A stretch of 44,603 nt of DNA from Eubacteriales bacterium (GTDB lineage Bacteria > Bacillota > Clostridia > Oscillospirales > Oscillospiraceae), in contig JAUMWJ010000006.1 of assembly GCA_030529655.1 (NCBI GenBank), positions 1-44,603 on the forward strand. The letters run 5' to 3'. Positions 6,962-23,402 of this stretch are shown piece after piece. The first letter of the stretch is position 1. Each line of letters opens with the position of its first letter. Under the pieces are notes generated by a model, which was not told the origin of the DNA, did not search any database, and saw nothing but the letters and a program-made list of their open reading frames with translations. Made by a program: the position numbers and the translations under genes.

Positions 6962-6971
6962 CGTAGAAAAC

Positions 6972-6987: not shown

Positions 6988-7002
6988 AAAAGAGGTGCGG
7001 TT

Positions 7003-7620: not shown

Positions 7621-8591
7621 AAAGGATTTTGAGTTTGCTGTTGGCGCTGGCGCTGGTCTTAACAATGGCTGCCTGCGGCACAAAGAAGGCAGAAACGGCG
7701 GAGATAAATGTATATGTGCTCGCCGGTCCTACCGGTGTGGGAGCCATGAACCTGTGGGCAAAGAGCGATGCCGGCAAGACCGCCAATACCTATCACTTCA
7801 CCATGCCTGCTGCCAACGATGAGGTGGTGGCGGCCATTGCCAAGGGTGAGGCGGATATTGCCGCCGTTGCCACCAACATGGCGGCGACGCTTTATCAAAA
7901 AACCGGAGGCGGTGTAACGGTGCTGGCTGTCAATACCTTGGGCGTCTTGAGCTTGCTGAGTAACGGCGAGGAGATCGCCTCGGTTGCCGACTTAAGGGGC
8001 AAGACCATTTACACACCCGGTCAGGGTGCCAATCCCGAATATATCCTGCGCTATGTGTTGACCGAAAACGGCTTACGACCCGACAGCGATGTGACCATCC
8101 GCTTTGTGGGCGATGGCAGTGAACTGGTAAGCGTGTGGCAGAGTGAACCCACAGCCGTTATCATGGCGCCTCAACCGATGGCGACCACCATTTTAATGAA
8201 GTATGCGGGCAGCCGTCAGGTGATGGACATGACCGAGGAATGGAATAAGGTATCCGGCGGTGAAAGTGCCTTGATGATGGGCTGTGTCATTGTGCGCAAT
8301 GCCTTTTTAGCCGAGCATAAGGGTGCGGTAGACACTTTCCTGCGTGAGTATGCCGGCTCCATCGAGGCGGCGCAGAACGATGTGACCGGCACGGCGGCCT
8401 TGTGCGAGCAGTACGGCCTGATCCCCAAGGCGGCGCTGGCGGAGAAAGCGATTCCCCGGTGTGGTCTTACCTATGTAAGCGGCAGCGAAATGAAAGCGCA
8501 GCTTAGCGGCTATCTGCAGGTGATGTATAACGCCAACCCCAAGAGTGTGGGTGGTAAGCTGCCTGATGAGGACTTCTACTATGGGGCATAA
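7617..8591 (+). CDS. ABC importer substrate-binding lipoprotein (NitT/TauT/SsuA-like)
   Basis: 324 residues; ATG overlaps the regulator stop (ATGA). The N-terminus has a lipoprotein signal with lipobox MAAC (Cys20), so the mature protein should be anchored outside the membrane. DEVVAAIAKGEADIAAVATN and LRGKTIYTPGQGANPEYILR are typical of the NMT1/SsuA-like family of periplasmic-type binding proteins, which serve sulfonates, nitrate or thiamine precursors. The substrate cannot be told from the sequence. Permease and ATPase genes follow directly, with overlaps. Confidence 0.85.
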   Translation: MKRILSLLLALALVLTMAACGTKKAETAEINVYVLAGPTGVGAMNLWAKSDAGKTANTYHFTMPAANDEVVAAIAKGEADIAAVATNMAATLYQKTGGGVTVLAVNTLGVLSLLSNGEEIASVADLRGKTIYTPGQGANPEYILRYVLTENGLRPDSDVTIRFVGDGSELVSVWQSEPTAVIMAPQPMATTILMKYAGSRQVMDMTEEWNKVSGGESALMMGCVIVRNAFLAEHKGAVDTFLREYAGSIEAAQNDVTGTAALCEQYGLIPKAALAEKAIPRCGLTYVSGSEMKAQLSGYLQVMYNANPKSVGGKLPDEDFYYGA

Positions 8592-9333
8592 GGGCATCAA
8601 AAACGCACTGGCGGTGCTTTTCTGGCTGATGGTGTGGCAGGCAGGCGCCATGTTGGCCAACCACTCGCTGCTCTTGCCGATCCCCACACCGATTACCACG
8701 CTGCAGGCGCTTGGCAGATTGCTTGCTCAGGGCAGTTTTTACTTTGCCGTGGGCACATCGCTTCTGCGAATCGCCATCGGTTTTGTGTTGGCTCTGGCAG
8801 CAGGTACGGTCAGTGCCCTGCTCAGTACCCGTTTTCGCCTGTTTGCTGCCTTGACAGCACCGCTTTTGCAGCTCATCCGTGCCATCCCCGTGGCCAGCTT
8901 TACCATTCTGCTGTTCCTATGGGTCAGGCGCGGCGCACTGCCAAGCTGTGTGGTATTTTTGACGGTGTACCCCTTAGTTTGGGCGAATGTGGAAAGCGGT
9001 ATCCGTCAAATGGACAGGTCGCTTGTTGAAATGGCAAAGGTATTCGGCATGAAAGCCAGTCAGATTTTCCGTCAAATCACGCTGCCGAGCTTGCGTCCCT
9101 ATTTCGGCGCGGCTTCGGCTTCCGGTCTGGGCTTTGCATGGAAATCCGGCGTGGCGGCGGAGGTCATCTGCCGCAGCGAACAGTCCATCGGCAACTTGCT
9201 GTGGGTGGGAAAGAACGGGGTGGATTATGATGAGGTCTTTGCGCTGACGCTGGTGATCGTGCTGTGCAGTGTGGCATTGCAGGTGCTTGCCGGACGCTTG
9301 ATGAAGGGAGGATGGCAGCATGATTCGGTTTGA
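8581..9333 (+). CDS. ABC importer permease (SsuC/TauC-like)
   Basis: 250 residues from the ATG at 8581, which has GAGG about 10 nt upstream and overlaps the end of the binding-protein gene; an in-frame ATG at 8545 lies deep inside that gene and is less likely. It has about six membrane helices of the BPD_transp_1 fold. The cytoplasmic EAA loop reads EMAKVFGMKASQIFRQITLP, the contact with the ATPase. Together with its neighbours it makes a complete one-permease importer of the NitT/TauT class. Confidence 0.87.
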   Translation: MGHKGIKNALAVLFWLMVWQAGAMLANHSLLLPIPTPITTLQALGRLLAQGSFYFAVGTSLLRIAIGFVLALAAGTVSALLSTRFRLFAALTAPLLQLIRAIPVASFTILLFLWVRRGALPSCVVFLTVYPLVWANVESGIRQMDRSLVEMAKVFGMKASQIFRQITLPSLRPYFGAASASGLGFAWKSGVAAEVICRSEQSIGNLLWVGKNGVDYDEVFALTLVIVLCSVALQVLAGRLMKGGWQHDSV

Positions 9334-9916
9334 CGGTGTTACTTTCGGCTACGGCTTAGGTAAAAATGTGCTGCAGGATTTCAATCTGACCGTACCTGAC
9401 GGTGCGCGTATCTGGCTATGTTCGCCTTCCGGCGGCGGTAAGACCACCGTGCTGCGTCTGTTGATGGGCTTGGAGAAGCCCCAAAAGGGCGGCGTAACCG
9501 GCTGTGAGAAGCTGCGTTTTTCCGCCGTGTTTCAGGAGGATCGCCTGCTGCCGTGGAAAACGGCGGCGGAAAATGCGGCGATGTTTTCCGATGAAACGGC
9601 GGCACGCGCCATGCTCAGTCGATTAGGACTAAGGGAAGAGGCGGATATGCGGCCTGCACAGCTCTCCGGTGGCATGAAGCGTCGCGTGGCGCTGGCAAGA
9701 GCGTTGTGCCATGACTGCGATGCGCTGGTGCTGGACGAGCCGCTGACGGGACTGGATGCGGAGATGAAAAAGATCTGCCTGCAAGCCATTGAGGAAACGG
9801 TGCAGAATAAAACGCTGGTCCTGACCGGCCACGATGCGTCCGACGCTGAGTTTTTACGCGCCGAAACAGTCACATGGCAGACAAATATTCCTGACACGAA
9901 ACACAATTTCCTATAG
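9320..9916 (+). CDS. ABC importer ATPase (SsuB/TauB-like)
   Basis: 198 residues, overlapping the permease by 14 nt. Walker A is SPSGGGKTT (residues 35-43), where Ser35 stands in place of the usual first Gly; the essential GK-T-T remains. Then come a Q-loop (FQED), the signature LSGGMKRR, Walker B LVLDEP and the H-loop (TGHD). It is shorter than typical SsuB proteins (about 240-260 residues) through compact loops and a short C-terminus, but all catalytic motifs are present. It should power the importer encoded just upstream. Confidence 0.9.
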   Translation: MIRFDGVTFGYGLGKNVLQDFNLTVPDGARIWLCSPSGGGKTTVLRLLMGLEKPQKGGVTGCEKLRFSAVFQEDRLLPWKTAAENAAMFSDETAARAMLSRLGLREEADMRPAQLSGGMKRRVALARALCHDCDALVLDEPLTGLDAEMKKICLQAIEETVQNKTLVLTGHDASDAEFLRAETVTWQTNIPDTKHNFL

Positions 9917-10179: not shown

Positions 10180-12423
10180 ATGGGTGCGGTACGCGGAAAA
10201 ATTGAGGTACGCGGCATTGTGCAGGGTGTGGGATACCGTCCCTTCATTCATCGGCAGGTGCGCCGTGCCGGATTGCGGGGTTGGGTGAAAAACACCAGTC
10301 ACGGCGTGGAGATCACGCTGGAGGGCGAACGGGACGCGCTGGAAGCATTTGCCGAAATGCTCCGCACAAATTATCCGCCTCTGGCCATGGTAGAATCGGT
10401 GACGATCACCGCATGGAACAAAGCGGAGGGAGTGGACGGCTTTCGCATTACCGAAAGTACGAAACTGCCCCTGCGCCGCACACTGATTTCGCCGGATATA
10501 GCTACCTGTGACGACTGCCTGGGTGAGTTGGAGGATAAAAATGATCGGCGTTTCGGCTATCCGTTCTTAAACTGTACCAACTGCGGCCCTCGTTTCACCA
10601 TTATTCGAGATGTACCCTATGATCGCCCCAACACCACCATGGGCGGATTTCCCATGTGTCCGGTGTGCGGCAGGGAGTACCACGATATTGAAAACCGCCG
10701 TTATCACGCCCAGCCCACCTGCTGCCCCGATTGCGGTCCGCAGCTGGGCTACTGCGATGCTGACGGCACAAGGGTAGAGGGCGATGCGCTTTCTCTGGCG
10801 GTGGAAACGCTGCAAAAGGGCGGTATCGTGGCGGTGAAGGGCTTGGGTGGCTTCCACCTGAGCTGTCGCTGTGACGATGCGGGGGCGGTGCTGCGGCTGA
10901 GAAACCGCAAGCATCGTGAGGAAAAACCACTGGCAATTATGTGCCGCAGCATTGACGCAGCGAAAAAATTTTGCGCCTTTGGCGATGAGGAGGCCGCTGT
11001 GCTGACCTCGCCCCAGCGGCCCATTACGCTTTTGAAGAAGCGCAGCGATATGGCGCATCTGACCAACAATCAATACCTTGGTGTGATGCTGCCCTATACG
11101 CCGCTGCACCATCTCTTATTGCGATCCTTTGACGCATTGGTGATGACCAGCGCCAATCTGTCGGATCTGCCTATTATAAAGGATAATGAGGAGGCCATCA
11201 CTGCCTTGCAGGGCGTGGCGGACGGCTTTTTGCTCCATGATCGCCCCATTGAGAGTCGCTGTGACGATTCGCTGTTATGGGTGCATGAGGGTATGCCTTA
11301 CTTCGCCCGTCGCAGTCGGGGTTATGTACCCTATCCCGTAGCGGTGGATATAGACGGCGAAACCGTGTTGGCCTGCGGTGGGGAGCAGAAGGCGTCTTTC
11401 TGCCTGAGCCGTGAGAGCGATGTGTTCCCCAGCGCCCATATCGGCGATCTGAAGAACGCCGAAACCTTAACCCATTACGAGCAGCAGATCACCCATTTTG
11501 AAAAGCTGTTCGATGTCAAACCGGAGCTGCTGGTCTGCGATCAGCACCCTGACTATTTATCTGCTCGCTATGCCTATGACCGCTGTAAGCATGAGGGTTT
11601 GCCCTTGATCGCCGTGCAGCATCATCACGCCCATATGGTGTCCTGCATGGCGGATAACCGCTTGACGGGGAAGTGCCTTGGCATCATCTGGGACGGCACC
11701 GGCCTCGGCGATGACGGCACTATCTGGGGCGGTGAATTTCTGGTAGGCGATGAGCAAAGCTATGAGCGTGTGGGGTCGATTCGCCCCATACCTCTCATCG
11801 GCGGTGAACGCGCTATTTGGGAAATCGAGCGCATCGGCTATGCGCTGCTGCATGAAGCGGACGGTATTTCCGAGGAAAATCCTGTATGGGAACGGATGCT
11901 TCTGCGTGGCATGAATTGTCCGGCTTCCACCGGTATGGGACGGCTGTTTGACGGTGTTTGCGCTTTGTTGGGTCTGCGAAGTTCGGTGTCCTATGAGGGA
12001 CAGGGCGCGGTGCTTTTAGAGGCAGCCGCCACCGAAGACGAGGGGCGTTATCCCGTGGTTATCGAGGGGGATACCTTCGACTGGCGCGAGATGGTCAAGG
12101 CCATCGTTCATGAGAAAGTGCAAGGTGTGGAAACAGGCGTGATAGCCGCGCGATTTATGAATACACTGGTGGAGATGGCGGTGGAGATGAGCCGCCGTAT
12201 CTGCGGAGACAAAGGGCTACAACACGTCGTTTTATCCGGCGGTGTGTTTCAAAACCAATATCTGCTGACCCGGCTGCCCCGGCGGCTGCGTGAGGTAGGG
12301 CTAACGCCTTATATTCACCGCCGTGTGTCCTGCAACGACGAGGGCTTGAGTCTGGGACAGCTTGTGATCGCAAAGAAGGGAGGCGGCGTATATGTGCTTG
12401 GCAGTACCGCTGAAGATCGTTGA
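10180..12423 (+). CDS. hypF: [NiFe]-hydrogenase maturation carbamoyltransferase HypF
   Basis: 747 residues, the usual HypF length. HypF makes the cyanide ligands of the active-site iron from carbamoyl phosphate and passes them to HypE. Domains in order: acylphosphatase (residues about 1-90, GIVQGVGYRPF), two zinc fingers (CDDC, CTNCGPRF, then CPVCG and CCPDCG, about 108-185), a YrdC-like domain (about 200-370, GGIVAVKGLGGFHLSCR), and a Kae1-like domain (about 390-747, HHHAHMVSCMAD and IIWDGTGLGDDG). First gene of the hydrogenase operon; it overlaps hypC by 32 nt. Confidence 0.96.
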   Translation: MGAVRGKIEVRGIVQGVGYRPFIHRQVRRAGLRGWVKNTSHGVEITLEGERDALEAFAEMLRTNYPPLAMVESVTITAWNKAEGVDGFRITESTKLPLRRTLISPDIATCDDCLGELEDKNDRRFGYPFLNCTNCGPRFTIIRDVPYDRPNTTMGGFPMCPVCGREYHDIENRRYHAQPTCCPDCGPQLGYCDADGTRVEGDALSLAVETLQKGGIVAVKGLGGFHLSCRCDDAGAVLRLRNRKHREEKPLAIMCRSIDAAKKFCAFGDEEAAVLTSPQRPITLLKKRSDMAHLTNNQYLGVMLPYTPLHHLLLRSFDALVMTSANLSDLPIIKDNEEAITALQGVADGFLLHDRPIESRCDDSLLWVHEGMPYFARRSRGYVPYPVAVDIDGETVLACGGEQKASFCLSRESDVFPSAHIGDLKNAETLTHYEQQITHFEKLFDVKPELLVCDQHPDYLSARYAYDRCKHEGLPLIAVQHHHAHMVSCMADNRLTGKCLGIIWDGTGLGDDGTIWGGEFLVGDEQSYERVGSIRPIPLIGGERAIWEIERIGYALLHEADGISEENPVWERMLLRGMNCPASTGMGRLFDGVCALLGLRSSVSYEGQGAVLLEAAATEDEGRYPVVIEGDTFDWREMVKAIVHEKVQGVETGVIAARFMNTLVEMAVEMSRRICGDKGLQHVVLSGGVFQNQYLLTRLPRRLREVGLTPYIHRRVSCNDEGLSLGQLVIAKKGGGVYVLGSTAEDR

Positions 12424-12613
12424 ACTCCACGGCGCTGACGCCGTCGCAGAATGGGAGGGCGTCCGCCGCAAGATTCGTGTGGACTTTATCCCCGACCCCC
12501 AAGTGGGGCAATATGTGATCGTCCATGCCGGCTTCGCCATCGAGCGACTGGATGAAAAGCAGGCATTGGCGGATCAACAGGCGTTTTCGGAGGTGGAAAA
12601 TGCCCTGCTTTGA
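12392..12613 (+). CDS. hypC: Hydrogenase maturation chaperone HypC
   Basis: 73 residues starting MCLAVPLKIVE, the invariant HypC/HupF N-terminus whose Cys2 binds the iron intermediate. GGGAGG lies upstream inside hypF. HypC works with HypD to carry Fe(CN)2CO to the large subunit. It overlaps both neighbours, which suggests translational coupling. Confidence 0.95.
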   Translation: MCLAVPLKIVELHGADAVAEWEGVRRKIRVDFIPDPQVGQYVIVHAGFAIERLDEKQALADQQAFSEVENALL

Positions 12614-13682
12614 GCGTGACTGGACGGCAGAGCAGGTGCTTGACGCTATCCGCGCATTGCCGATCGAAAAGGCGAACTTGATGGAGGTATGCGGCACGCA
12701 TACCGTTTCCATCGCACGCAGCGGCATCAAACGGATGCTGCCTAAAAATGTGCAGTTACTGTCCGGCCCGGGCTGTCCTGTCTGCGTGACGCCTACCTCG
12801 GACATTGATACTATATTAGACCTTGCCCTGGAAAAGGATGTCATTATCGCCACCTACGGCGATGTGCTCCGTGTACCCGGCAGCCGTCACGGCGACAGCT
12901 TACGCCGCCGCGGCAGCGAGGGAGCAAGGGTAAAAATGGTCTATTCACCGCTGGATGCGGTGTCGCTGGCGGAAAAATTTCCCGATAAGCAGGTGGTATT
13001 TTTAGGCGTCGGCTTTGAAACCACCGCACCGGGTACAGCCATTGCGGTAAAGCAGGCGCAGGCGAAGGGCTTAAAAAACTTTACCGTCCTATCCCTTCTC
13101 AAAACCGTGAAGCCGGCATTGGAAACCTTGATGGCGCAGCCGGATTTCGCCGTGGACGGTTTTTTATGCCCCGGCCATGTGGCGGTGATTACCGGCGCGG
13201 AGCATTTCCGCTTTTTGCCGGAGAAATACCACCGTGGAGCGGTGGTGGCAGGGTTTGAGCCCATGGATATTCTCTTGTCGGTTTATCATCTGCTGCGCCA
13301 GCTCGCTGAGGGAAAACCGACCTTGGGAAATGAGTATACAAGAGCCGTTGCACCAAAGGGCAACCCCTTAGCACAGCAGACGGTGGAGAGATATTTCACT
13401 CCCTGCGATGCGGTGTGGCGCGGCATGGGGGAGATTCCCCAAAGCGGCCTCCAACTGCGTGAGGCATACCGACAGTTTGACGCGGTGGCACGGTTTGGTT
13501 TGGAATTGGGCAAGCCGGAGAAACCCTCCGCCTGTCAGTGCGGTCAGGTCATTACCGGCAAATGTCCGCCCCAGGAATGCCCCTTGTTTGGCAAGGTCTG
13601 TGTGCCGGAGAATCCGGTGGGTCCGTGCATGGTGTCCGGCGAAGGTGCCTGTGCGGCGGCCTATCAGTATCAGGAGGTGTAG
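12600..13682 (+). CDS. hypD: Hydrogenase maturation protein HypD
   Basis: 360 residues from the ATG at 12600, chosen for GGAGGTGG at 12589-12596; an earlier in-frame start at 12525 is too long for the family. Conserved blocks: CGTHTVSIARSG, LLSGPGCPVCVTP, GVGFETTAPGTA, GFLCPGHVAVITG and GFEPMDIL, then a C-terminal [4Fe-4S]-type cysteine region with CQCG and CPPQECPLFG. HypD is the scaffold on which cyanide and CO are added to iron. It overlaps hypC by 14 nt; hypE follows after 2 nt. Confidence 0.95.
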   Translation: MPCFERDWTAEQVLDAIRALPIEKANLMEVCGTHTVSIARSGIKRMLPKNVQLLSGPGCPVCVTPTSDIDTILDLALEKDVIIATYGDVLRVPGSRHGDSLRRRGSEGARVKMVYSPLDAVSLAEKFPDKQVVFLGVGFETTAPGTAIAVKQAQAKGLKNFTVLSLLKTVKPALETLMAQPDFAVDGFLCPGHVAVITGAEHFRFLPEKYHRGAVVAGFEPMDILLSVYHLLRQLAEGKPTLGNEYTRAVAPKGNPLAQQTVERYFTPCDAVWRGMGEIPQSGLQLREAYRQFDAVARFGLELGKPEKPSACQCGQVITGKCPPQECPLFGKVCVPENPVGPCMVSGEGACAAAYQYQEV

Positions 13683-13684
13683 GC

Positions 13685-14686
13685 ATGGAGCAAGTAATCA
13701 CCTTGGATTACGGCAGCGGCGGCAGAAAAACTTCCCAGCTCATAGATGAACTGATCGTGCCTGCCCTCGGTAACAAGGCACTGAGCCAGTTAAATGACGG
13801 CGCGGTGCTGTCAGGCCGCGAAAAACTGGTGTTTTCCACCGACAGCTTTGTGGTGTCGCCCCGTTTTTTCCCCGGCGGCAATATCGGCAAGCTCTCGGTG
13901 TGCGGCACGGTGAACGATGTGGCCATGTGCGGCGGCGAGCCGAAGTATTTAAGCTTAGCGTTTATTATTGAAGAAGGACTTCCCGTATCGGAGCTGCGTG
14001 AGATCATCGCCTCCATCGCCAAAGCGGCACAGGATGCCGGCGTGCAGATCGTCACCGGTGATACCAAGGTGGTGGAAAAAGGGAAGTGCGACGGCATCTA
14101 TATCAACACCGCCGGCATCGGCTTCCTGCGGAAAGACAATCTGTCACCCGACAATATCGAGGTAGGGGACAAGGTGATCGTGTCCGGCTTTATCGGCGAT
14201 CACGGCACGGCGGTGATGCTTGCCCGTGAGCCGGAGCTTTTAGAAAGCGACATCGCCTCCGATTGTGCGCCCTTACACCGAGCCGCGCAAAAGCTGTGGC
14301 AACTGGGCGACGATCTGCGCGTGCTGCGCGATCCTACGAGAGGCGGCGTGGCCACCACGCTCAATGAATTTACCGAAAACCGTTTTTTCTCCATTGAACT
14401 TCAGGAGAAGGGCTTACCTGTTCGTCCGGCGGTACACGCCGCCTGCGAGATTTTGGGCTTAGATCCGCTGTACTGCGCCAACGAAGGAAAACTGCTGGCC
14501 ATCGTGAAGGCGGATCGTGCTGACGAGGCGTTAACGCTTCTGCGTGAGTGCTCCGAAGGTAAAGACGCCGCCGTGATCGGTACGGTAACGGCGACATATC
14601 CCGGCAAGGTGGTTTTGAAAACCGCCTTCGGCGGCACCCGAGTGCTCAGCAAGCTCAGCGGCGCACAGCTGCCTCGCATTTGTTGA
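13685..14686 (+). CDS. hypE: Hydrogenase maturation protein HypE (carbamoyl dehydratase)
   Basis: 333 residues from the ATG at 13685 with GGAGG about 12 nt upstream; the earlier in-frame ATG at 13538 lies inside hypD. A PurM/AIR-synthase-like fold is indicated by LDYGSGGRKTSQLI, VSGFIGDHGTAVM and LRDPTRGGVATTLNE. The protein ends in PRIC, the conserved C-terminal tail whose last Cys is carbamoylated by HypF and dehydrated to thiocyanate. The tail is intact, so the enzyme should be functional. Confidence 0.96.
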   Translation: MEQVITLDYGSGGRKTSQLIDELIVPALGNKALSQLNDGAVLSGREKLVFSTDSFVVSPRFFPGGNIGKLSVCGTVNDVAMCGGEPKYLSLAFIIEEGLPVSELREIIASIAKAAQDAGVQIVTGDTKVVEKGKCDGIYINTAGIGFLRKDNLSPDNIEVGDKVIVSGFIGDHGTAVMLAREPELLESDIASDCAPLHRAAQKLWQLGDDLRVLRDPTRGGVATTLNEFTENRFFSIELQEKGLPVRPAVHAACEILGLDPLYCANEGKLLAIVKADRADEALTLLRECSEGKDAAVIGTVTATYPGKVVLKTAFGGTRVLSKLSGAQLPRIC

Positions 14687-14716
14687 TATATTATGAATAT
14701 AAAAGGAGAAAAGAGT

Positions 14717-15106
14717 ATGCAGGGTTACGAGAAAATCATCATCACCAAAGATGAGATCGTTCCCACGGCTCAAAGGATGCGCGCGGAAGACCGTGCGCTG
14801 GTGATGATCCACGGATTCCTCACCGACAACGGCTTCAACGTGTCCTATGAGTATGAAGTGGGCGACAATGTGGAGTCCTACACCGTGGAAACGGCGGAGA
14901 GTCTGCCAAGCATCGCCGACATCTACGACAAGGCCGCCGAATGGCCGGAGCGTGAGCTGGGCGAGCTCATGGGCATCACCTTTGAGGGACTGGACACCTC
15001 CAAACGCTTGTTCCTGCCGGACAATATGCTGGAGGGTCAGGGTCAGATTCTGGTGACCCCCATGAAGGAACTGATCGATAAGGCACAGGGAGGTAAGCAA
15101 GCATGA
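14717..15106 (+). CDS. mbhK: NuoC/MbhK-like hydrogenase subunit (complex I 30-kDa-like)
   Basis: 129 residues from the ATG at 14717 with AAAAGGAGAA just upstream; an earlier ATG at 14693 has none. The core PSIADIYDKAAEWPERELGE and LMGITFEGL is the complex I 30-kDa (NuoC) signature. The subunit packs against the large subunit on the cytoplasmic side in group 4 hydrogenases. Its stop overlaps the start of the large-subunit gene (ATGA), which keeps the usual K-L pairing. Confidence 0.85.
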   Translation: MQGYEKIIITKDEIVPTAQRMRAEDRALVMIHGFLTDNGFNVSYEYEVGDNVESYTVETAESLPSIADIYDKAAEWPERELGELMGITFEGLDTSKRLFLPDNMLEGQGQILVTPMKELIDKAQGGKQA

Positions 15107-16185
15107 GTTATATCATTCCCATCGGCCCGTACCATCCTGCATTGGAAGAGCCGGTCCACGCAAAACTGATCACGGACGGTGAAATGATCACCGATGCCGA
15201 GATTTCCATCGGCTATAACCACCGCGGCATTGAAAAGCTGGCCACCGAACGCAACTTCATCCAGACCATCGTCCTGGTGGAGCGTGTGTGCGGTATCTGC
15301 TCCCACTCCCATGCGTTCAACTATGCGCAGGCGGTGGAAGCCATTGCCGGCATGAATGTGCCTAAGCGCGGCCAGTATATCCGTGTCATCATGGCGGAAC
15401 TGGAGCGTCTGCACTCCCACTATCTGTGGCTGGGTATCGCCTGCCACATCATCGGCCATGACAGTCTGTTCATGCACATCTGGAACGACCGTGAGATCGT
15501 GATGGATATTCTGGAGGAGATCTCCGGCAACCGCGTGAACTACGGTATGGTCACCATCGGCGGCTCTCGCCGCGACATCGACGCGGAGAAGGCCGACCAC
15601 ATCCTCAAGATGCTGGAGAAGCTGGAGAGCAGTCTGCTGCGAATCCGTGATATTCTGCTGGCCGACAAGACTGTGGCCATGCGTACCAAGGGTGTGGGCG
15701 TGCTGACCACCGAGGATGCCTTGCGGATCGGCGCCATCGGCCCCCACGCAAGAGCTTCCAACGTACCGGTGGATGTGCGTATCGATGCGCCCTACTCCTG
15801 CTACGATGAATTTGAGTTCAAGAAATGCACCTGGGATAGCTGCGATGTCTTCGCCCGTGTGGTGGTGCGTGTACTGGAGAGCGTGGAGTCTATCTCCATC
15901 ATCCGTCAGGCACTGGCCAATTTGCCCAAAGGTCCTATCAATCTGGGCGTAAAGATCCCTAAGGTGCCTGCCGGTGAGTATATGACACGCCACGAGGCTC
16001 CCCGCGGTCAGCTGGTGACCAAGGTCGTCACCAACGGCACCGAGTACAACGAGCGCGTGTCCATCCATGTGCCTACCTTTAAGAATGCGCCTACGCTGTC
16101 TACCATGCTCAAGGGCAACACCGTGGCCGATGCCGGTTTGATCGTGGCATCCATCGACCCGTGCTTCAGCTGCATGGACCGCTGA
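15103..16185 (+). CDS. mbhL: [NiFe] hydrogenase large (catalytic) subunit, group 4 Mbh type
   Basis: 360 residues. Both nickel-binding motifs are complete: L1 RVCGICSHSH at 61-70 (Cys63, Cys66) and L2 DPCFSCMDR at 352-360 (Cys354, Cys357), so this is a hydrogenase and not a complex I or Mbs relative that lost the cysteines. IGYNHRGIEKL and ELERLHSHYLWLG are typical of NuoD/EchE-like subunits. The protein ends exactly at the Arg where other [NiFe] large subunits are cleaved, so no C-terminal peptide exists. Predicted role: H2 evolution from ferredoxin electrons. Confidence 0.96.
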   Translation: MSYIIPIGPYHPALEEPVHAKLITDGEMITDAEISIGYNHRGIEKLATERNFIQTIVLVERVCGICSHSHAFNYAQAVEAIAGMNVPKRGQYIRVIMAELERLHSHYLWLGIACHIIGHDSLFMHIWNDREIVMDILEEISGNRVNYGMVTIGGSRRDIDAEKADHILKMLEKLESSLLRIRDILLADKTVAMRTKGVGVLTTEDALRIGAIGPHARASNVPVDVRIDAPYSCYDEFEFKKCTWDSCDVFARVVVRVLESVESISIIRQALANLPKGPINLGVKIPKVPAGEYMTRHEAPRGQLVTKVVTNGTEYNERVSIHVPTFKNAPTLSTMLKGNTVADAGLIVASIDPCFSCMDR

Positions 16186-16186
16186 T

Positions 16187-16528
16187 ATGCACGAGTTATC
16201 TTTGGCACAAGGTATCCTCCAGGTGGCGCTGAAAGCCGCCCGGCAGGGCGGTGCAGAGCGCATCATGACGGTGTATGTGAAAACCGGCGCTTTTTCCGGC
16301 GTGGTGCCGTCCTATTTGGACGAGTGCTTCACGCTGATGAGCAAGGGTACACCCGCCGAGGGTGCGACACTTGAAGTGGAGGAGGTTCCCGTTGTGGTGC
16401 GGTGTTTAGACTGCGAGCAGGAAAGTCAGATCGACCGGGCGGATGCGTGCTGTCCCAACTGCGGCAGCAGCCAGATCCGTATGGTTCACGGACGGGAGTG
16501 CTTCGTAGACCGCATCGAGGCGGAATAA
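16187..16528 (+). CDS. hypA: Nickel metallochaperone HypA
   Basis: 113 residues beginning MHELSLAQGIL; the N-terminal Met-His-Glu forms the nickel site. The zinc site is made by CLDC and CPNC around residues 74-95. HypA delivers nickel to the large subunit, normally with the GTPase HypB, which is absent from this window. It sits between the large subunit and the antiporter genes rather than with hypFCDE. Confidence 0.95.
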   Translation: MHELSLAQGILQVALKAARQGGAERIMTVYVKTGAFSGVVPSYLDECFTLMSKGTPAEGATLEVEEVPVVVRCLDCEQESQIDRADACCPNCGSSQIRMVHGRECFVDRIEAE

Positions 16529-16570
16529 ATGATAAAACAAAAAATGAAGATAGATAAGGAGAGAATCAAA

Positions 16571-17113
16571 TTGAAAAAGGCAAGATTTCCGGCAGTGATC
16601 GCCACTGCCATCGTCTGCTTTCTCTTCTGGCTGCTGATCACCGGACAACTGGTGATGCTGCTGGAGGGTGAACCCAGCTGGCAAGTGCTGGTGGCAGGCG
16701 TCCTGGTCAGCGTCGGTGTTTCGCTTTTCAGTGCGAAGTTCTTTATCCACAGCAATCCCTTCTATATCTGGCATCCCAAGCGTTTGGGCGCAGCGCTGCT
16801 GTACTGCGTCATTATCTTCCCTTGGGAGCTTATCAAGGCCAACTGGGATATGGCCAAGCGTGCTTTCAGCCCTAAGCTGAACATTAACCCCGGCATCGTA
16901 AAGATCCCCGTGGAGATGGAAAGCGATTACGGTCTGATGGCGCTGGCCAACTCCATTACCCTGACTCCCGGAACCATCACCATGGAAGTGACGGAGGAGG
17001 ACGGTCAGAACTACTTCTATGTCCACTGGATCGATGCCACTGCGGACGGGGAAGAAGGTACCCAAGCCATCTGCGGTACCATGCAAAAATGGCTGAGGAG
17101 GATCTGGAAATGA
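16571..17113 (+). CDS. mnhE: Mrp-type antiporter subunit E-like (MbhA)
   Basis: 180 residues from the TTG at 16571, chosen because AAGGAGAG lies 7 nt upstream and the first membrane helix then starts at once (KKARFPAVIATAIVCFLFWL). The in-frame ATG at 16529 abuts the hypA stop and would add 14 Lys-rich residues; it remains possible. Two or three membrane helices, then PWELIKANWDMAKRAFSP and NSITLTPGTITMEV, the MnhE signature. It belongs to the ion-translocating membrane arm. Confidence 0.9.
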   Translation: MKKARFPAVIATAIVCFLFWLLITGQLVMLLEGEPSWQVLVAGVLVSVGVSLFSAKFFIHSNPFYIWHPKRLGAALLYCVIIFPWELIKANWDMAKRAFSPKLNINPGIVKIPVEMESDYGLMALANSITLTPGTITMEVTEEDGQNYFYVHWIDATADGEEGTQAICGTMQKWLRRIWK

Positions 17114-17364
17114 GTGAATTGCTGTTTTTTGCCATCTGTTTTCTGGCATTGGCTCTGATGCTGATTTTCCGTATTGCAAAGGGCCCCAGTGTGGCTGACC
17201 GCGCTATTGCGGCCGACTGTGTGGATATGCTGACGGATATGGCGCTGATCCTGTTCGCGCTGTATTCCCACCGCGGTATCTTTTTGGACATCGCTTTGGT
17301 GACGGCGGTGCTGGGCTTTATCGGTACTACCTTCATTGCCAAGTATCTGGAGGGCAAGCTATGA
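17110..17364 (+). CDS. mnhF: Mrp-type antiporter subunit F-like (MbhB)
   Basis: 84 residues from the ATG at 17110 (ATGA overlap with mnhE). Three membrane helices; FRIAKGPSVADRAIAADC and LDIALVTAVLGFIGT are the MnhF/MrpF motifs. Small structural subunit of the antiporter-like module. Confidence 0.93.
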   Translation: MSELLFFAICFLALALMLIFRIAKGPSVADRAIAADCVDMLTDMALILFALYSHRGIFLDIALVTAVLGFIGTTFIAKYLEGKL

Positions 17365-17699
17365 GAATTGCGATTGATATTTTGATTGGCATCAGCCTGT
17401 TCTTCGCGCTGGCCGGTGTGGTGGGTATGCTCCGTATGCCCGACACCTTCAGCCGTATGCAGTCCGCCACCAACATCACCACGCTGGGTGTGCTGGGCGT
17501 CATTATCGGCGCGATCCTCTACACCGCGTTTGTGCTGCATAACTATGAGATGACCGTCAAACTGGCCATCATCGGTGTGTTCTACATCATCACCAACCCC
17601 ATCTCCGGCCATGCACTGGCCAAGGGCGCCTACAAGCACGGCGTGCGTCCCGACAAGGAGATGGAAGTAAATCGCTATGAGGAGGATCTGGGAGAATGA
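17361..17699 (+). CDS. mnhG: Mrp-type antiporter subunit G-like (MbhC)
   Basis: 112 residues, ATGA overlap on both sides. Three membrane helices; GMLRMPDTFSRMQSATNITT is the MnhG/MrpG signature (usually RLPDxxxRxHAAT). Its order after E and F matches both Mrp and Mbh operons. Confidence 0.93.
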   Translation: MRIAIDILIGISLFFALAGVVGMLRMPDTFSRMQSATNITTLGVLGVIIGAILYTAFVLHNYEMTVKLAIIGVFYIITNPISGHALAKGAYKHGVRPDKEMEVNRYEEDLGE

Positions 17700-17956
17700 C
17701 GACTTTATATACCATCCTCAATAGTATGTGCCTTCTGGGCATCGTCGTGTGCGCCATTCTGGCGGTGACACTGGAAAAACCCTTGTCTTCCAGCATTGCA
17801 TTGGGCACCACCGGTGCATTCGTGTCGCTGGAGTTTTTGCTGCTGCAGGCACCCGATGTGGCCATTGCTGAGGCCGCTGTGGGTGCGGTACTGTCCACGG
17901 TGCTGTTCGTGGTTGCCGTACGCAAGACCACCAAGAAGGAGGATGAGGAGAAATGA
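17696..17956 (+). CDS. mbhD: MbhD-like membrane subunit (DUF4040 type)
   Basis: 86 residues with two or three helices. LLLQAPDVAIAEAAVGA is the DUF4040/MbhD hallmark, corresponding to a segment of the large MrpA protein that is split off in membrane-bound hydrogenases. It overlaps neighbours by ATGA. It should help form the ion path at the junction of the antiporter and hydrogenase modules. Confidence 0.9.
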   Translation: MTTLYTILNSMCLLGIVVCAILAVTLEKPLSSSIALGTTGAFVSLEFLLLQAPDVAIAEAAVGAVLSTVLFVVAVRKTTKKEDEEK

Positions 17957-18315
17957 AAGGGAAAAAATGGGTGGGCCTGATTTCCCTGGCCATCATCTTC
18001 CTGGCAGGCATCTATGCCGTGCTGTATATGTACACCGATTTAGGTGTGACCTATGACGGCAAGAATACCGACGTGACCGAGCTGTATGCCAATCCCGAGG
18101 ACTATGATCTGGGGGACGAGGACGGCGTGGCATCGGCCATTGTGGAACTGGGTCTGGATAAGACCAAGGCTGTCAATAATGTGGCGGCGGTGGTGTTCGA
18201 CTTCCGTGGTTTCGATACCATCGGCGAGTCCTTCATCCTGCTGGCTGCCATCTCCGGCTCTTTCATCATCCTGCGCACCAATAAAGAGAAGAAGGAGGAA
18301 GATGAACTTGTCTAA
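17953..18315 (+). CDS. mbhE: MbhE-like membrane subunit (MrpA C-terminal-like)
   Basis: 120 residues: an N-terminal helix, an acidic hydrophilic stretch (residues about 30-65), then NNVAAVVFDFRGFDTIGESF and a second helix, the MbhE/MrpA C-terminal signature. It overlaps mnhB by 14 nt. Confidence 0.9.
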   Translation: MKGKKWVGLISLAIIFLAGIYAVLYMYTDLGVTYDGKNTDVTELYANPEDYDLGDEDGVASAIVELGLDKTKAVNNVAAVVFDFRGFDTIGESFILLAAISGSFIILRTNKEKKEEDELV

Positions 18316-18787
18316 GAATATCAAAGTCAAAGAGGTCATCGTCAGCTCCGGCGCAGACCGTTTTCTGCCCTTTTCGCTGACACTGGGCCTGTTCGTCATC
18401 CTGTTCGGAACCTCCTCCTCCGGCGGTGGTTTTCAGGGCGGCGTCATCGTGGCCTCCGGCTGCCTGCTGGTCTATCTGGGCCACGGCTACAAGGCGGCTG
18501 TCAGTTCCATCAATATGGAGTTTATCCGAATCAACGAGGCCATCGGCGCCACGCTGTACATCCTGCTGGGCGTGTGCGGTCTGGTATTCGGCGCACGCTT
18601 CTGCCAGAATGTGTTTTACAAGATCGGCGATGTGGGTGACCTTATTTCCGGCGGTACCATCACCTTCATGAGCTATGCCGTCGGCTACAAGGTGCTGACC
18701 GGCGTGGGCTTCCTGCTGCTTCTGCTGCTGGGCATGCTGGCTCCTGAGAATGATGAAAATGAGAAGAAGGAGGACGAGGCACAATGA
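18302..18787 (+). CDS. mnhB: Mrp-type antiporter subunit B-like (MbhF)
   Basis: 161 residues from the ATG at 18302, with GGAGGAAG just upstream; a longer in-frame ORF from 18086 only reads through mbhE. Four helices; LFGTSSSGGGFQGGVIVASG is the MnhB signature (usually GHxxPGGGFxGG). It ends in an acidic, Lys-rich tail. Confidence 0.92.
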   Translation: MNLSKNIKVKEVIVSSGADRFLPFSLTLGLFVILFGTSSSGGGFQGGVIVASGCLLVYLGHGYKAAVSSINMEFIRINEAIGATLYILLGVCGLVFGARFCQNVFYKIGDVGDLISGGTITFMSYAVGYKVLTGVGFLLLLLLGMLAPENDENEKKEDEAQ

Positions 18788-19134
18788 TTATCGGCAACTA
18801 TATCGTGTCCATCTTCCTGATCGTGCTGGGCCTCTACGCAGTGGCTAACAAGCACAATATGATCAAGATCGTGCTGGGCATGGGCATCGTGGACTACGGC
18901 GTGAATCTGTTGATCGTGTCCATCGGCTACCGTCCCGGCGGTACGGCACCTCTGTTCGTGGCAAACGAGCTGCTGCAGGGCAACTTCTTCGTTGACCCTG
19001 TGCCCCAGGCACTGACATTGACCAGCATCGTCATCGGCGCCTGCGTGGACGCCATGGCGCTGTCCCTTGTCATCAAGATCTATCGTAAGTATCATACGAT
19101 CGATTCTACCGAAGTCAGGAGGCTGCACGGATGA
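18784..19134 (+). CDS. mnhC: Mrp-type antiporter subunit C-like (MbhG; NuoK-like)
   Basis: 116 residues, three helices, ATGA overlaps. GLYAVANKHNMIKIVLGMGI and VDPVPQALTLTSIVIGACVD are MnhC/NuoK motifs. NuoK-family proteins carry membrane-buried acidic residues for ion transfer; here an Asp (GIVDYGVNLL) sits in helix 2 where Glu is common. Confidence 0.93.
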   Translation: MIIGNYIVSIFLIVLGLYAVANKHNMIKIVLGMGIVDYGVNLLIVSIGYRPGGTAPLFVANELLQGNFFVDPVPQALTLTSIVIGACVDAMALSLVIKIYRKYHTIDSTEVRRLHG

Positions 19135-21050
19135 GCTACATACATTTTCCTGTGATCGCGGTCATGATCCTGTTTTTGGCAGCTTTTCTGGTTGTCATCT
19201 TCGGTACGCACCGCAAGAATCTGCGCCGTATCATTGCCATGACCGCGGCCATCATCTCCTTCGGTCTGATTTTCTATCTCATTAAGCCCGTTATGCTTGA
19301 GGGCGAGGTGATCTCCTACTGGATGGGCAACTGGAGCCCTGTAGAGGGCTACGCCATCGGTATCGGCTACGAGATCGACGGCTTGAATCTGTTCTTCGCC
19401 CTGCTGGTGTCCTTCACCACGCTGTTCTCCGGCTGGTACTCCCTGCGCTACATGGAGCGGGACGACTATCTGGACCGTTACTACACCCTGTATCTGATGC
19501 TCTCCGGCGCTGTACTGGGCCTGGTGCTCACCGGCGACCTCTTCAATATGTTCGTCATGATTGAGATCATGACCTTCGCCGCTGTGGCGTTGACCGCCTT
19601 CCGTAACTGGACGGCCGGTGCTTTGGAGGCCTCCTTCAAGTACCTGGTAGTCGGCTCTGCCGGTTCTTCCTTCGTGCTGACCGGCGTGATTCTGATCTAT
19701 GCCCAGTGCCACACGCTGAATATGGCGCAGATCTCCTCTTACCTGGCCGGTAACGAGGGGCTGACCCCCACCACCGTGCTGGCATTCGGTCTGCTCTTTG
19801 CCGGCTTCGGCGTCAAGAGTTACATCGTACCTTTCCATCCCACTGCGGCCGATGCTTATACGGCGGCTCCGTCCTCCGTGTCCATGCTGTTCTCCGGTAT
19901 GGTCAACAAGGCCGGCGTTTACGCCATGATCCGTATGGCATACGTGATCTTCCAGGCCATGGGTATCTCCGCTGTTCAGTGCCTGCTGGTGCTGGTGGGC
20001 TGCGTGACCATGTTCGTGGGCGTGACCATGGCCTTGGCACAGCATGACTTCAAGCGTCTGCTGGCATTCCACTCTATCTCTCAGATCGGCTATGTCATCA
20101 CCGCTATCGGTCTTGGCACCGCCATGGGTCTGAGCGGCGGTCTGTTCCACGCCATGAACCATACCCTCTTTAAGGGATTGCTGTTCCTGTGCGCAGGTAG
20201 CGTGTCCTATGCCGCCGGCACCACCAGTCTTGACAAGCTGGGCGGCCTGAGTAAGAAGATGCCCAAGACCACTATCATTTTCCTGGTCGGTGCGTTCTCT
20301 ATCTCCGGCTTGCCTCCCTTTAACGGCTTTGCCTCCAAGTGGATGATCTATCAGGCCACCTACGAAAAGGCCGTTGCCGCCAACAATATCGGCTACGCCT
20401 TCGTCACCGTGGTGGCGCTGATCGTATCCGTGATGACGCTGGCCTCCTTTATCAAGGTCACCCAGTCCGTGTTCTTCGGTCAGCTCAAGGCCGACTGCGC
20501 AGAGGTCAAGGAAGTACCGCTGGGTATGCGTATCCCCATGTGGATCATGGCGGCCATCTGCCTGCTCTCCGGCGTGTTCTACAACAAGGTGATCGAGTGG
20601 CTGCTCAATCCCGCTACCGCCGCCGCCATCAATGTGACCAACTATATCGACAAGATGATGGGCGATGGCTATGCGGCACAGGCCGGTATCCAGAACCTGC
20701 CCGTGCAGGGTGCTGCTTTGAGTTTCTGGAATCCCCTGATGTGGCTGGTACTGTTCGTGATCGTGTTCTTCGCTGTGGGTATCGTGGTCGTGACCGGCAA
20801 GCGCAGCCGCGGTCAGGTGCTCTCCGAGGGTGACGAGCCGGAGGCCAAGTACGATTCCTTCTTCGGCGGCGAAAAGGCACTGCCCAGCCATGTGGCAGGC
20901 GGCGACCTGTTCTGGGGCTTCAAGCATAATTGGAAGGGTTACTTCCACTTTATGGAGCGCGCCCATTCCGGTATCGTCAACGACTACGCTCTGTGGGCCG
21001 TTGTGGCGACTGCCGTATTCATCGTGTATCTGTTCATTTTTGTGCATTGA
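19131..21050 (+). CDS. mnhD: Mrp-type antiporter subunit D-like (MbhH) with MbhI-like C-terminal extension
   Basis: 639 residues with many membrane helices, against about 490-510 for usual MnhD/MbhH. The conserved ion-path residues are present: the helix with FNMFVMIEIMTFAAVAL (Glu near 144) and GFGVKSYIVPFHPTAADAY (Lys near 230). LLAFHSISQIGYVITAIGLG follows. After residue about 500 there is extra sequence: an amphipathic region, a helix (LVLFVIVFFAVGIVVV), a soluble loop and a last helix beginning HSGIVNDYALWAVVATA, which resembles MbhI or the NuoL C-terminus. No separate mbhI gene exists in the operon, so a fusion is likely. Confidence 0.92.
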   Translation: MSYIHFPVIAVMILFLAAFLVVIFGTHRKNLRRIIAMTAAIISFGLIFYLIKPVMLEGEVISYWMGNWSPVEGYAIGIGYEIDGLNLFFALLVSFTTLFSGWYSLRYMERDDYLDRYYTLYLMLSGAVLGLVLTGDLFNMFVMIEIMTFAAVALTAFRNWTAGALEASFKYLVVGSAGSSFVLTGVILIYAQCHTLNMAQISSYLAGNEGLTPTTVLAFGLLFAGFGVKSYIVPFHPTAADAYTAAPSSVSMLFSGMVNKAGVYAMIRMAYVIFQAMGISAVQCLLVLVGCVTMFVGVTMALAQHDFKRLLAFHSISQIGYVITAIGLGTAMGLSGGLFHAMNHTLFKGLLFLCAGSVSYAAGTTSLDKLGGLSKKMPKTTIIFLVGAFSISGLPPFNGFASKWMIYQATYEKAVAANNIGYAFVTVVALIVSVMTLASFIKVTQSVFFGQLKADCAEVKEVPLGMRIPMWIMAAICLLSGVFYNKVIEWLLNPATAAAINVTNYIDKMMGDGYAAQAGIQNLPVQGAALSFWNPLMWLVLFVIVFFAVGIVVVTGKRSRGQVLSEGDEPEAKYDSFFGGEKALPSHVAGGDLFWGFKHNWKGYFHFMERAHSGIVNDYALWAVVATAVFIVYLFIFVH

Positions 21051-21064: not shown

Positions 21065-22003
21065 ATGGAAATTCTGTTCGCCGTTTTGCGTATCTTGTTC
21101 TTCCCCGGTCTGCTGTTTGTGGCCGTGGGCGGTCTGCTGCTCAGCGGTATCGACCGTAAGGTGTTGGCTCGTATGCAGCGCCGTGTAGGCCCTCCCATCG
21201 TGCAGCCTTTCTATGATTTCTTCAAACTGATGGGTAAGGAAACCATCATTCCTCACCACGCCAATCGCACCGTGTATATGTGGGCACCCATCGTGGGTAT
21301 GGTGAGCTTGGCGGTGACCATGCTCTTTATCCCCATCTGCGGTTTCTCCGCCTTTTCCGGTACGGCGGATCTGCTGGTGGTGCTGTACCTGCTGACCATC
21401 CCCGCCGTGTGCCTGATCGTGGGCGGCTCCGCTTCCGGCTCTCCCTTTGCAGGGGTCGGTATCTCCCGTGAGATGGTGGCCATGATGAGTTATGAGCTGC
21501 CTCTGGTGCTGGTGCTTTTGAGCGTTGCCAAGCAGGTGGGCTCTTTGAGCCTGCAGGACATTGCCGCCTATCAGGCTGCCAACGGCTGCATTCTGTTCCA
21601 TTGGAGCATGATTCCTGCTGCCATTGCCATGCTGTTGGTGATTCCTGCTGAGGCCGGCTGCCACCCCTTCGATGTGGCCGAGGCCGAGACCGAGATCTGC
21701 GAAGGCCCGCTGGTGGAGTACAGCGGCGCACCTCTGGGTGTGTTCAAGCTGAACCACGCCATGAAGCTGTTCGTGCTGACCGCTCTGTTCTGCGCTCTGT
21801 TTTTGGGCGGCATTACCAGCGGTATCGCACCGGTAGATGTGCTGATCATTTTCGCTCTGTGCGCCGTGGTGATGATCGTCTGTGTTACCCTGCTGCACGG
21901 TATCTGCGCCCGTCTTCGCGTGGAGCAGGTATTCAAGTTCTATTGGACCGTGGTGACGGGTCTGGCGCTTGTCAGCCTGATCCTCGTCTGGTTCGGTCTG
22001 TAA
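21065..22003 (+). CDS. mbhM: NuoH/MbhM-like membrane subunit
   Basis: 312 residues, about eight helices, with GGAGGTGAGG upstream. RRVGPPIVQPFYDFFKLMGK and the cytoplasmic loop FDVAEAETEICEGPLVEYSG are the signatures of complex I subunit 1 (NuoH, EchB, MbhM). It anchors the catalytic subunits to the membrane and links electron transfer to ion pumping; the acidic loop is intact. Confidence 0.95.
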   Translation: MEILFAVLRILFFPGLLFVAVGGLLLSGIDRKVLARMQRRVGPPIVQPFYDFFKLMGKETIIPHHANRTVYMWAPIVGMVSLAVTMLFIPICGFSAFSGTADLLVVLYLLTIPAVCLIVGGSASGSPFAGVGISREMVAMMSYELPLVLVLLSVAKQVGSLSLQDIAAYQAANGCILFHWSMIPAAIAMLLVIPAEAGCHPFDVAEAETEICEGPLVEYSGAPLGVFKLNHAMKLFVLTALFCALFLGGITSGIAPVDVLIIFALCAVVMIVCVTLLHGICARLRVEQVFKFYWTVVTGLALVSLILVWFGL

Positions 22004-22015: not shown

Positions 22016-22462
22016 ATGTTTAAGAATTTAATCGCTGACAGCGCCGCCAAATCCCCTTGGGTCTATCATATCAACACCGGCTCCTGCAACGGCTGCGACA
22101 TCGAACTGGTTGCCGCCATTACGCCTCGTTTTGACGCTGAGCGTTTCGGCGTCAAGCTGGCGGGTACTCCCCGTCACGCTGACATTGTGGTGGTCACCGG
22201 CCCCGTTACCGCACAGTCCAAGGAGCGTCTGATCCGTACCCTGGAGCAGGTGCCCGAACCCCGCGTCATCGTAGCCATGGGCACTTGCCCCAATAGTTGC
22301 AACGTGTTCAAAAACAGCTATTCCGTGTGCGGCCCGCTGGAGAACTTCTGCCATGTGGATGTGTCCATCGCCGGCTGCTCGCCCAAGCCGGAGGCCGTGC
22401 TGGCCGGTATCGTGCAGGCCACCGAGATTCTCAAGCAGAAGAGGAAGGAGATGGCAAAATGA
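22016..22462 (+). CDS. mbhJ: [NiFe] hydrogenase small subunit (MbhJ/NuoB-like)
   Basis: 148 residues with AAGGAGGT upstream. Cluster ligands: Cys24 and Cys27 (TGSCNGCDIEL), Cys91 (AMGTCPNS) and Cys121 (IAGCSPKPEA), which bind the single proximal [4Fe-4S] cluster next to the [NiFe] site. There is no Tat signal, as expected for a cytoplasmic group 4 enzyme. It overlaps the polyferredoxin gene (ATGA), which should feed it electrons. Confidence 0.95.
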   Translation: MFKNLIADSAAKSPWVYHINTGSCNGCDIELVAAITPRFDAERFGVKLAGTPRHADIVVVTGPVTAQSKERLIRTLEQVPEPRVIVAMGTCPNSCNVFKNSYSVCGPLENFCHVDVSIAGCSPKPEAVLAGIVQATEILKQKRKEMAK

Positions 22463-23361
22463 GTTTTTCTTTCCCTTATCTGAAGTATGCTGTGGGTAAT
22501 CTGTTCAAGAAGTCCTCTTGTGATATGTACCCCTTCGTGGAGAGTACCGCCGCCGACAAGTATCGCGGTCGTATCGCTTATGATCCCACTAAGTGTATAA
22601 ACTGCGGCCTTTGCATGAAGGTCTGCTCTCCCAGCGCCATCACCCGCACCGAAAAGGAAGTGGAGGGCGGCAAGGAGATCACCTTCCATTTCGATCTGAC
22701 AAGCTGTACCTTCTGCGGTATGTGCCAGGACTTCTGCCCCCAGAAGGCCATCGAGCTGACCGCTGACTACGGCATGGTGGGTAAGCGCGAGGAGCTGTTC
22801 ACCGAGGGCAGCTACGTCAAGGAAGCACCTGCCGGCAAGCTGGGTATCGGCGATGACTGCGTGTTCTGCGGTCTGTGCGCCAAGATGTGCCCCCAGGGTG
22901 CTATCACCGTGGACCGTGCCAACAAGTCCTGGACGGTGGACGAGGACAAGTGCGTCAAGTGCGGCGTGTGCGTGGGCAAGTGCCCCAAGAAGACGCTGGA
23001 CTTCCAGAAGCCGCAGGTGCAGTGCGGCGAGGACTGCGTGTATTGCGGTCTGTGCGCCAAGATGTGCCCGCAAGGCGCCATTACCGTTGACCGCCCCAAC
23101 AAGAGTTGGACGGTGGACGAGGACAAGTGCGTCAAGTGCGGCGTGTGCGTGGGCAAGTGCCCCAAGAAGACGCTGGACTTCCAGAAGCCGCAGGTGCAGT
23201 GCGGCGAGGACTGCGTGTATTGCGGTCTGTGCGCCAAGATGTGCCCGCAAGGCGCCATTACCGTTGACCGCCCCAACAAGAGTTGGACGGTGGACAAGGA
23301 AAAGTGCGTGCTGTGCGGCATGTGCGTGAGCAAGTGCCCCAAGAAAGCACTGAAAATCTGA
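22459..23361 (+). CDS. mbhN: Polyferredoxin electron-input subunit with eight [4Fe-4S] motifs (MbhN-like)
   Basis: 300 residues from the ATG at 22459, overlapping the small-subunit stop; a longer in-frame ORF from 22297 reads through that gene. Residues 1-105 match the ordinary two-cluster MbhN/EchF/NuoI subunit (CINCGLCMKVC at 46 and CTFCGMCQDFC at 83). Six further CxxCxxCxxxC motifs follow as three 59-residue units starting at residues 136, 195 and 254 (the last truncated), joined by a linker with QVQCGEDC. Each unit holds two motifs, so eight [4Fe-4S] clusters are predicted in all. Units one and two are nearly identical in DNA. The tail may act as a wire or docking arm for external ferredoxin. 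Last gene of the operon. Confidence 0.93.
   Translation: MSFSFPYLKYAVGNLFKKSSCDMYPFVESTAADKYRGRIAYDPTKCINCGLCMKVCSPSAITRTEKEVEGGKEITFHFDLTSCTFCGMCQDFCPQKAIELTADYGMVGKREELFTEGSYVKEAPAGKLGIGDDCVFCGLCAKMCPQGAITVDRANKSWTVDEDKCVKCGVCVGKCPKKTLDFQKPQVQCGEDCVYCGLCAKMCPQGAITVDRPNKSWTVDEDKCVKCGVCVGKCPKKTLDFQKPQVQCGEDCVYCGLCAKMCPQGAITVDRPNKSWTVDKEKCVLCGMCVSKCPKKALKI
22930..23295 (+). repeat. Exact tandem duplication, 177-nt period, inside the polyferredoxin gene
   Basis: Positions 22930-23118 and 23107-23295 are identical over 189 nt, overlapping by 12 nt, which is a tandem repeat of period 177 nt (59 codons). The flanking unit boundaries (22864-22929 and after 23295) are diverged. Synonymous positions have not drifted, so the last duplication is very recent. 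Confidence 0.93.
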
Positions 23362-23368
23362 TTGAGAA

Positions 23369-23402
23369 AAAATCCTCCGACAAAATGTCGGGGGATTTTT
23401 GA
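23369..23402 (+). terminator. Terminator of the hydrogenase operon
   Basis: AAATCCTCCGACA pairs with TGTCGGGGGATTT around a short A-rich loop and is followed by T residues, 8 nt after the polyferredoxin stop. Confidence 0.88.

Follow-up and report, generated by a model that had tools for sequence, protein, structure and literature searches.

A Mrp/Mbh-type [NiFe] hydrogenase operon in the window, by which we mean the whole analysed stretch of 44,603 nucleotides, ends with the gene for an MbhN/NuoI-like subunit with a tail of three tandem ferredoxin-like units, the middle one of which looks like a fresh hybrid of the other two. The recent addition of a tail unit, together with tails of other lengths in relatives, suggests a built-in electron-collecting arm of easily evolving length. 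The gene, its parts and the exact repeat within it are located as follows.

22459..23361, plus strand: polyferredoxin-tailed MbhN/NuoI-like subunit (300 aa plus stop)
22459..22851, plus strand: canonical two-motif core (motifs at aa 46 and 83) with TIGR01971 and 6cfw_N matches
22852..23028, plus strand: tail unit 1 (motifs at aa 134 and 165)
23029..23205, plus strand: tail unit 2, a hybrid with its first part as in unit 3 and its second part as in unit 1
23206..23358, plus strand: tail unit 3, terminal (motifs at aa 252 and 283)
22930..23118, plus strand: exact repeat, copy 1
23107..23295, plus strand: exact repeat, copy 2
23364..23402, plus strand: terminator-like inverted repeat and T run after the stop (by eye)

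The original prediction had described eight [4Fe-4S]-type motifs, in a core and three 59-residue units, and this anatomy was recovered: CxxCxxCxxxC starts at residues 46, 83, 134, 165, 193, 224, 252 and 283 of the 300-aa product, with two motifs in the core and two in each of the 59-aa units, and Pfam Fer4 matches eight stretches (15 Pfam matches overall), where motif counts are not to be equated with cluster counts. TIGR01971 (NuoI) scored 150.3 bits against a cut-off of 113.05, a whole-protein score raised by the repeat tail, and its best stretch at aa 12-115 shows that a two-motif NuoI-type core is present. An MbhN/NuoI-like subunit should have two [4Fe-4S] motifs only, and the six extra motifs make the product a variant of this subunit. 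The gene is present as a single copy in the draft genome, where the runner-up among 11 matches spans only 70 residues at 50% identity.

That the product is an MbhN-like subunit of a Mrp-linked hydrogenase, as had also been proposed, is borne out by Pfam matches across the operon, listed here from the tailed gene backwards.

22016..22462, plus strand: NuoB/MbhJ-like hydrogenase small subunit (PF01058, E 1.6e-26)
21065..22003, plus strand: NuoH/MbhM-like membrane subunit (PF00146, E 2.1e-75)
19131..21050, plus strand: MnhD/MbhH-like antiporter subunit (PF00361, E 1.9e-58)
18784..19134, plus strand: MnhC-like subunit (PF00420, E 1e-23)
18341..18787, plus strand: MnhB-like subunit, start uncertain (PF04039, E 3e-19, above cut-off)
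17953..18315, plus strand: MbhE-like subunit (PF20501, E 4.3e-5, 23.9 bits, below the curated cut-off of 27)
17696..17956, plus strand: MbhD-like subunit (PF13244, E 2.8e-20, above cut-off)
17361..17699, plus strand: MnhG-like subunit (PF03334, E 2.8e-22, above cut-off)
17089..17364, plus strand: MnhF-like subunit (PF04066, E 2.6e-13, above cut-off)
16529..17113, plus strand: MnhE-like subunit (PF01899, E 2e-40)
16187..16528, plus strand: HypA nickel chaperone (PF01155, E 1.4e-33)
15103..16185, plus strand: NuoD/MbhL-like hydrogenase large subunit (PF00346, E 2.8e-67; PF00374, E 2.9e-13)
14693..15106, plus strand: NuoC/MbhK-like subunit (PF00329, E 3e-12)
10180..14686, plus strand: maturation genes, which we take to be hypF-C-D-E-like (named by eye from ORFs)

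The translation of the large subunit contains the cysteine pairs CGIC and CFSC, and such paired cysteines are the metal-binding motifs of the [NiFe] hydrogenase large subunit. With a large subunit, NuoB-, NuoC- and NuoH-like subunits, Mrp-type antiporter subunits and MbhD/MbhE, the operon belongs to a Mrp/Mbh-type group 4 [NiFe] hydrogenase, predicted to be an energy-converting enzyme that couples ferredoxin-driven H2 evolution to ion transport. Hydrogenases that oxidise ferredoxin are a source of the H2 released in gut and rumen fermentations. In the draft genome, which is 97.39% complete with 1.6 Mb in 48 contigs, POR_N is matched four times, [FeFe]-hydrogenase twice and the RnfB-type FeS domain PF04060 once (contig C23); with a small free ferredoxin also present, a ferredoxin-based metabolism is likely. 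Just upstream of the maturation genes, at 7003-9916, lie a Crp-type regulator and an ABC-transporter set whose binding protein is SsuA/NMT1-like. At 1984-6849 a cohesin-match gene adjoins that of a GDSL-lipase-like protein whose C-terminus matches dockerin weakly, below cut-off, the two being a small cellulosome-like pair.

The predicted identity of 22930-23118 and 23107-23295 is exact over its 189 nt and not extendable by one base at either end, and Tandem Repeats Finder gives a 177-nt period with 2.8 copies and 93% matches; an exact identity of this length at a single period is far beyond what chance gives. Unit 2 is identical to unit 3 in its first 82 nt (68/82 vs unit 1) and over its compared second part to unit 1 (53/53 vs 44/53 for unit 3), and the switch point consists of 12 nt, TGGACGGTGGAC, common to all three window units. 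Judged from these identities, unequal crossing-over between two older units, or slippage between them, would yield just such a hybrid, while gene conversion within an array already three units long is a possible alternative. The congeneric homologue G031 (locus L009) has two tail units with the signatures RANK...VKCG and RPNK...VLCG, and the hybrid unit of the window joins both of them. At the DNA level the halves of the window units agree with the G031 units in 65-69/82 nt and 43-46/53 nt over all pairings and the matching unit is not clearly closer, so that the two-unit ancestor rests on the diagnostic residues. In blastn, the longest pieces aligned between the two operons have 77-81% identity; between the two repeat copies of the window there is no difference, and the duplication is therefore recent, as the original prediction had it. 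The window thereby appears to capture the growth of a redox protein by one recombination step, visible at nucleotide resolution.

To see how widespread such tails are we compared one genome per species. Within the genus a full-length match was found in 2 of 32 genomes, the own genome included (best E elsewhere 2e-17), and the sole other homologue, that of G031, has 6 motifs. In the family 20 of 300 genomes, again with the own one, matched at E <=1e-30, and the 19 others have 2 motifs (n=9), 4 motifs (n=8, one of them truncated at a contig end) or 8 motifs (n=2, one Ech-type). In the order 6 of 394 genomes including the own one matched at E <=1e-38, the five others all coming from one genus and having 8, 8, 8, 6 and at least 7 motifs (the last at a contig end), and in the class it was 5 of 391, own included, the other four with 2 motifs. 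The ferredoxin tail is a restricted feature. Two loci of the genus deserve separate mention. G021 contains a fragment only, namely a 176-aa frame on the minus strand near a contig end (L011), which links part of a NuoH-like subunit in frame to part of MbhN plus a single tail unit and is either a deletion remnant or an assembly join. In G010 a molybdenum-hydroxylase-large-subunit-like frame (L010, minus strand, by eye) carries a C-terminal two-motif unit of the hydrogenase-tail kind (n=1).

A contig scan took the best 80 of 327 relatives and favours tailed forms because both of its patterns lie in the tail. It yielded 106 proteins and, after identical or contained ones were dropped and near-identical ones retained, 98 distinct homologues, which after one reassignment comprise 79 Mbh-type and 19 Ech-type proteins. 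The type was set by the core motif and is borne out by the large-subunit identity to the window, 66-87% for Mbh-type vs 38-44% for Ech-type where the gene is in the locus. In this tail-favouring sample the Mbh-type proteins have 2-10 motifs and the Ech-type proteins 6-16. The 74 of 79 Mbh-type genes uncut at the 3' end show 2 motifs in 9 cases, 4 in 26, 5 in 2, 6 in 20, 8 in 15 and 10 in 2, counts that include the 5'-cut L099 (6 motifs) and L102 (5 motifs), and all 19 Ech-type genes could be counted, with 6 motifs in 1, 8 in 11, 10 in 6 and 16 in 1. Among genes without a cut end L123 alone has an odd count, and about nine residues are missing inside its last unit (by eye). With 6 motifs in the congener and 2 to 16 across relatives, the motif count varies among related species, and it may also do so between strains, as the original prediction had suggested; the possibility that all homologues have eight is ruled out. 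Tails thus recur beyond the window, in further gut/rumen genomes and in Ech-type enzymes, and among the best 80 of 327 relatives the tailed forms are by label mostly from gut/rumen Oscillospiraceae and Lachnospiraceae genomes. The longest, at 5342-8209 of the Dialister-labelled locus L126, belongs to an Ech-type subunit that has 16 motifs in about 950 aa, with seven tail units on long linkers, and that adjoins Ech-like large and small subunits. As to labels, the congener's record JAGHUH010000037.1 (L062) bears the name Candidatus Cacconaster stercorequi, whose genus is assigned to Bacteroidales in NCBI taxonomy; this conflicts with the labels Ruminococcaceae/Oscillospiraceae of window-family genomes (L042, the same as L078, and L054, the same as L113). 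Behind the operons no downstream partner gene is widespread, as the largest cluster among 149 downstream ORFs has 11 members from 8 loci, and a dedicated partner gene at this place was rejected for want of a wide cluster; the cysteine-rich gene behind the operon of the window has no match in the other 78 Mbh-type loci, several of which have little downstream sequence.

On a quick NuoH+NuoB tree (73 loci, 29 of 70 inner branches starred) at least 18 changes of motif number are needed over the 67 tips with usable counts, compared to 36.6 on average and no fewer than 30 in 200 label shuffles, indicating that the tail is inherited with a length that often shifts; tail presence or absence takes 3 changes. 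Tail length is a labile trait, whole two-cluster units being gained and lost. The old unit 2 of L107 has been replaced, since its present units 1 and 2 do not differ over the unit and each is nearer to unit 1 of the relatives L042 and L079 (0.91-0.94) than to their unit 2 (0.84). For 163 units of multi-unit genes the nearest unit is found at the same position in another gene 122 times, in the own gene 23 times and at another position elsewhere 18 times. Most units are therefore not recent copies, and wholesale homogenisation as a rule was rejected on the same count. The dN/dS ratio is below 1 in all 72 scorable of 93 adjacent unit pairs (pS between 0 and 0.7; pairs from related genes and species and hence not independent), with a median of 0.305 and some values near 1, among them window units 2-3 (0.85), and by this measure the tail units look constrained.

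The linkers between Mbh-type units (n=62) have 5-9 residues in 22 cases and 29-94 residues in 40, and 19 of these 40 consist of Ala/Pro by at least half. Ech-type linkers (n=47) have 15 residues in 6 cases and are longer in 41, with at least half Ala/Pro in 8 of the longer ones. The linker of the window, KPQVQ, has about 5 residues by the unit definition used and is of the tightest kind. The ten-motif Mbh-type tails of L069 and L072 combine tight and long linkers within one protein, and their last unit has a motif spacing of 28-29, vs 31. Compared with possible sources, Mbh-type tail units reach a median best score of 210 against Ech tails, 172 against Ech cores, 109 against free ferredoxin and 101 against Mbh cores, with reference sets of unequal size and a single free ferredoxin. 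An origin from the Mbh core or from free ferredoxin is disfavoured by these scores, the latter on that single reference, and the module likely came from an Ech-like source, the direction not being proven.

We consider it rather probable that the window encodes an MbhN-type ferredoxin-docking subunit with a covalently tethered ferredoxin relay of labile length, whose middle unit arose by recent recombination. The subunit would dock ferredoxin in the Mrp-linked energy-converting [NiFe] hydrogenase, and its three C-terminal units are each predicted to bind two [4Fe-4S] clusters. A very recent recombination of two older units within the 12-nt identity would have added 177 bp in frame. The tail would be located on the electron-entry side, where its outer units might accept electrons from reduced soluble ferredoxin or from reductases like pyruvate:ferredoxin oxidoreductase, and these electrons would then pass via the two core clusters and the small subunit to the [NiFe] site. 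The tightly packed units of the window may form a cluster chain, and in many relatives the units would be strung like beads on long linkers, often rich in Ala/Pro. Long linkers and changing unit counts together point to tethered mobile ferredoxins in many members.

The tail may act as a wire or docking arm, as the original prediction proposed. A fixed molecular wire would be a rigid cluster chain to one particular partner enzyme, as for polyferredoxins within methanogen complexes. The close spacing of the window units fits such a wire, as do the best PDB matches of the tail, the polyferredoxins FwdF (5t5i_F, E 2e-28) and MvhB (9sw6_G, E 1.8e-26). However, linkers exceed 15 residues in 40/62 Mbh-type and 41/47 Ech-type gaps, which in the Mbh-type fits tethered mobile ferredoxins better even if the window itself is tight, a labile unit number is at odds with one fixed partner, and no downstream gene common to the loci was found, so that we regard a fixed wire as unlikely.

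Frequent change in unit number without any partner or dedicated context found would also agree with a neutral ratchet, in which tandem units come and go with no effect on function because an extra C-terminal ferredoxin fold is harmless. Against it stand the constraint on the units, to which their motifs and the uniformly low dN/dS point, the even motif counts in genes uncut at their ends, L123 excepted, and the presumable cost of an Fe-S-rich tail, and we think it still less likely than the wire. Least of all do we believe in an assembly artefact, with the exact 177-bp copy created or miscounted in the draft and a true number of two or more than three units: a draft of 48 contigs, the exact identity and the two-unit congener could be taken as signs of one, but short-read assemblers tend to collapse tandem repeats rather than create them, and three diverged tail units in other assemblies (L042, L057, L058, L060) make three units nothing odd. 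The tethered relay accounts best for the whole set, and the homologues offer a natural enzyme series with zero to seven appended two-motif units, in which tethered carriers, cluster number and linker length can be tested against electron delivery.

The tailed subunit is a variant of known hydrogenases. MbhN of the Pyrococcus furiosus Mbh (6cfw_N) resembles aa 5-105 of the window product (E 8.1e-11) and comes with the same Mrp/Mbh-type operon parts, but with 139 aa it is too short for a tail, whereas three two-motif units follow the core in the window; in the Pyrococcus enzyme soluble ferredoxin is described to dock on MbhN (PMC11228991). Methanogen polyferredoxins also have many ferredoxin-like modules per chain, and those with 6 to 14 clusters (MvhB 12, EhaP 6, EhaQ 10, EhbK 14, FwdF 8) are reported to accompany Eha, Ehb, Mvh and Fwd as separate proteins (PMC3087415). 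In contrast to these separate polypeptides without a NuoI-type core, the units of the window are fused behind a NuoI/MbhN core and are near-identical tandem copies. RnfB likewise combines ferredoxin entry to an ion pump with several ferredoxin domains, one of which is described as highly mobile, the Thermotoga maritima form having FdI only (PMC9588780), and it offers a precedent in both respects, the mobile ferredoxin domain and the differing domain numbers of one subunit. It differs by a transmembrane helix and the FeS domain PF04060, which is absent among the 15 Pfam matches of the window product. Among the titles and abstract openings listed in a literature search that covered few subscription journals, none was about tandem ferredoxin tails on bacterial MbhN/EchF.

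Only tentatively, and with less confidence than for the window itself, do we extend the proposal to a class of hydrogenases in gut and rumen Clostridia and the 16-motif Dialister, with a tethered ferredoxin antenna on the electron-entry subunit, tuned in length by unequal crossing-over of whole two-cluster units, and a unit kind common to Mbh and Ech. Such an antenna would be the redox counterpart of pyruvate dehydrogenase with its tandem lipoyl domains on linkers of Ala/Pro. EchF of Ech hydrogenases is tailed as well in the 19 Ech-type loci of the homologue set, but the window enzyme is Mbh-type and most Clostridia EchF are untailed: 31 of 391 genomes of the class sample match, own included, and the 29 Ech loci read from it have 2 motifs in 26 cases and 6 in one (the query's own protein), two being unresolved. 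A passage in PMC4478896 reports EchF as missing in some genomes of rumen butyrivibrio with other Ech genes. Annotation might miss a tailed EchF, and tails are a possible reason for that report.
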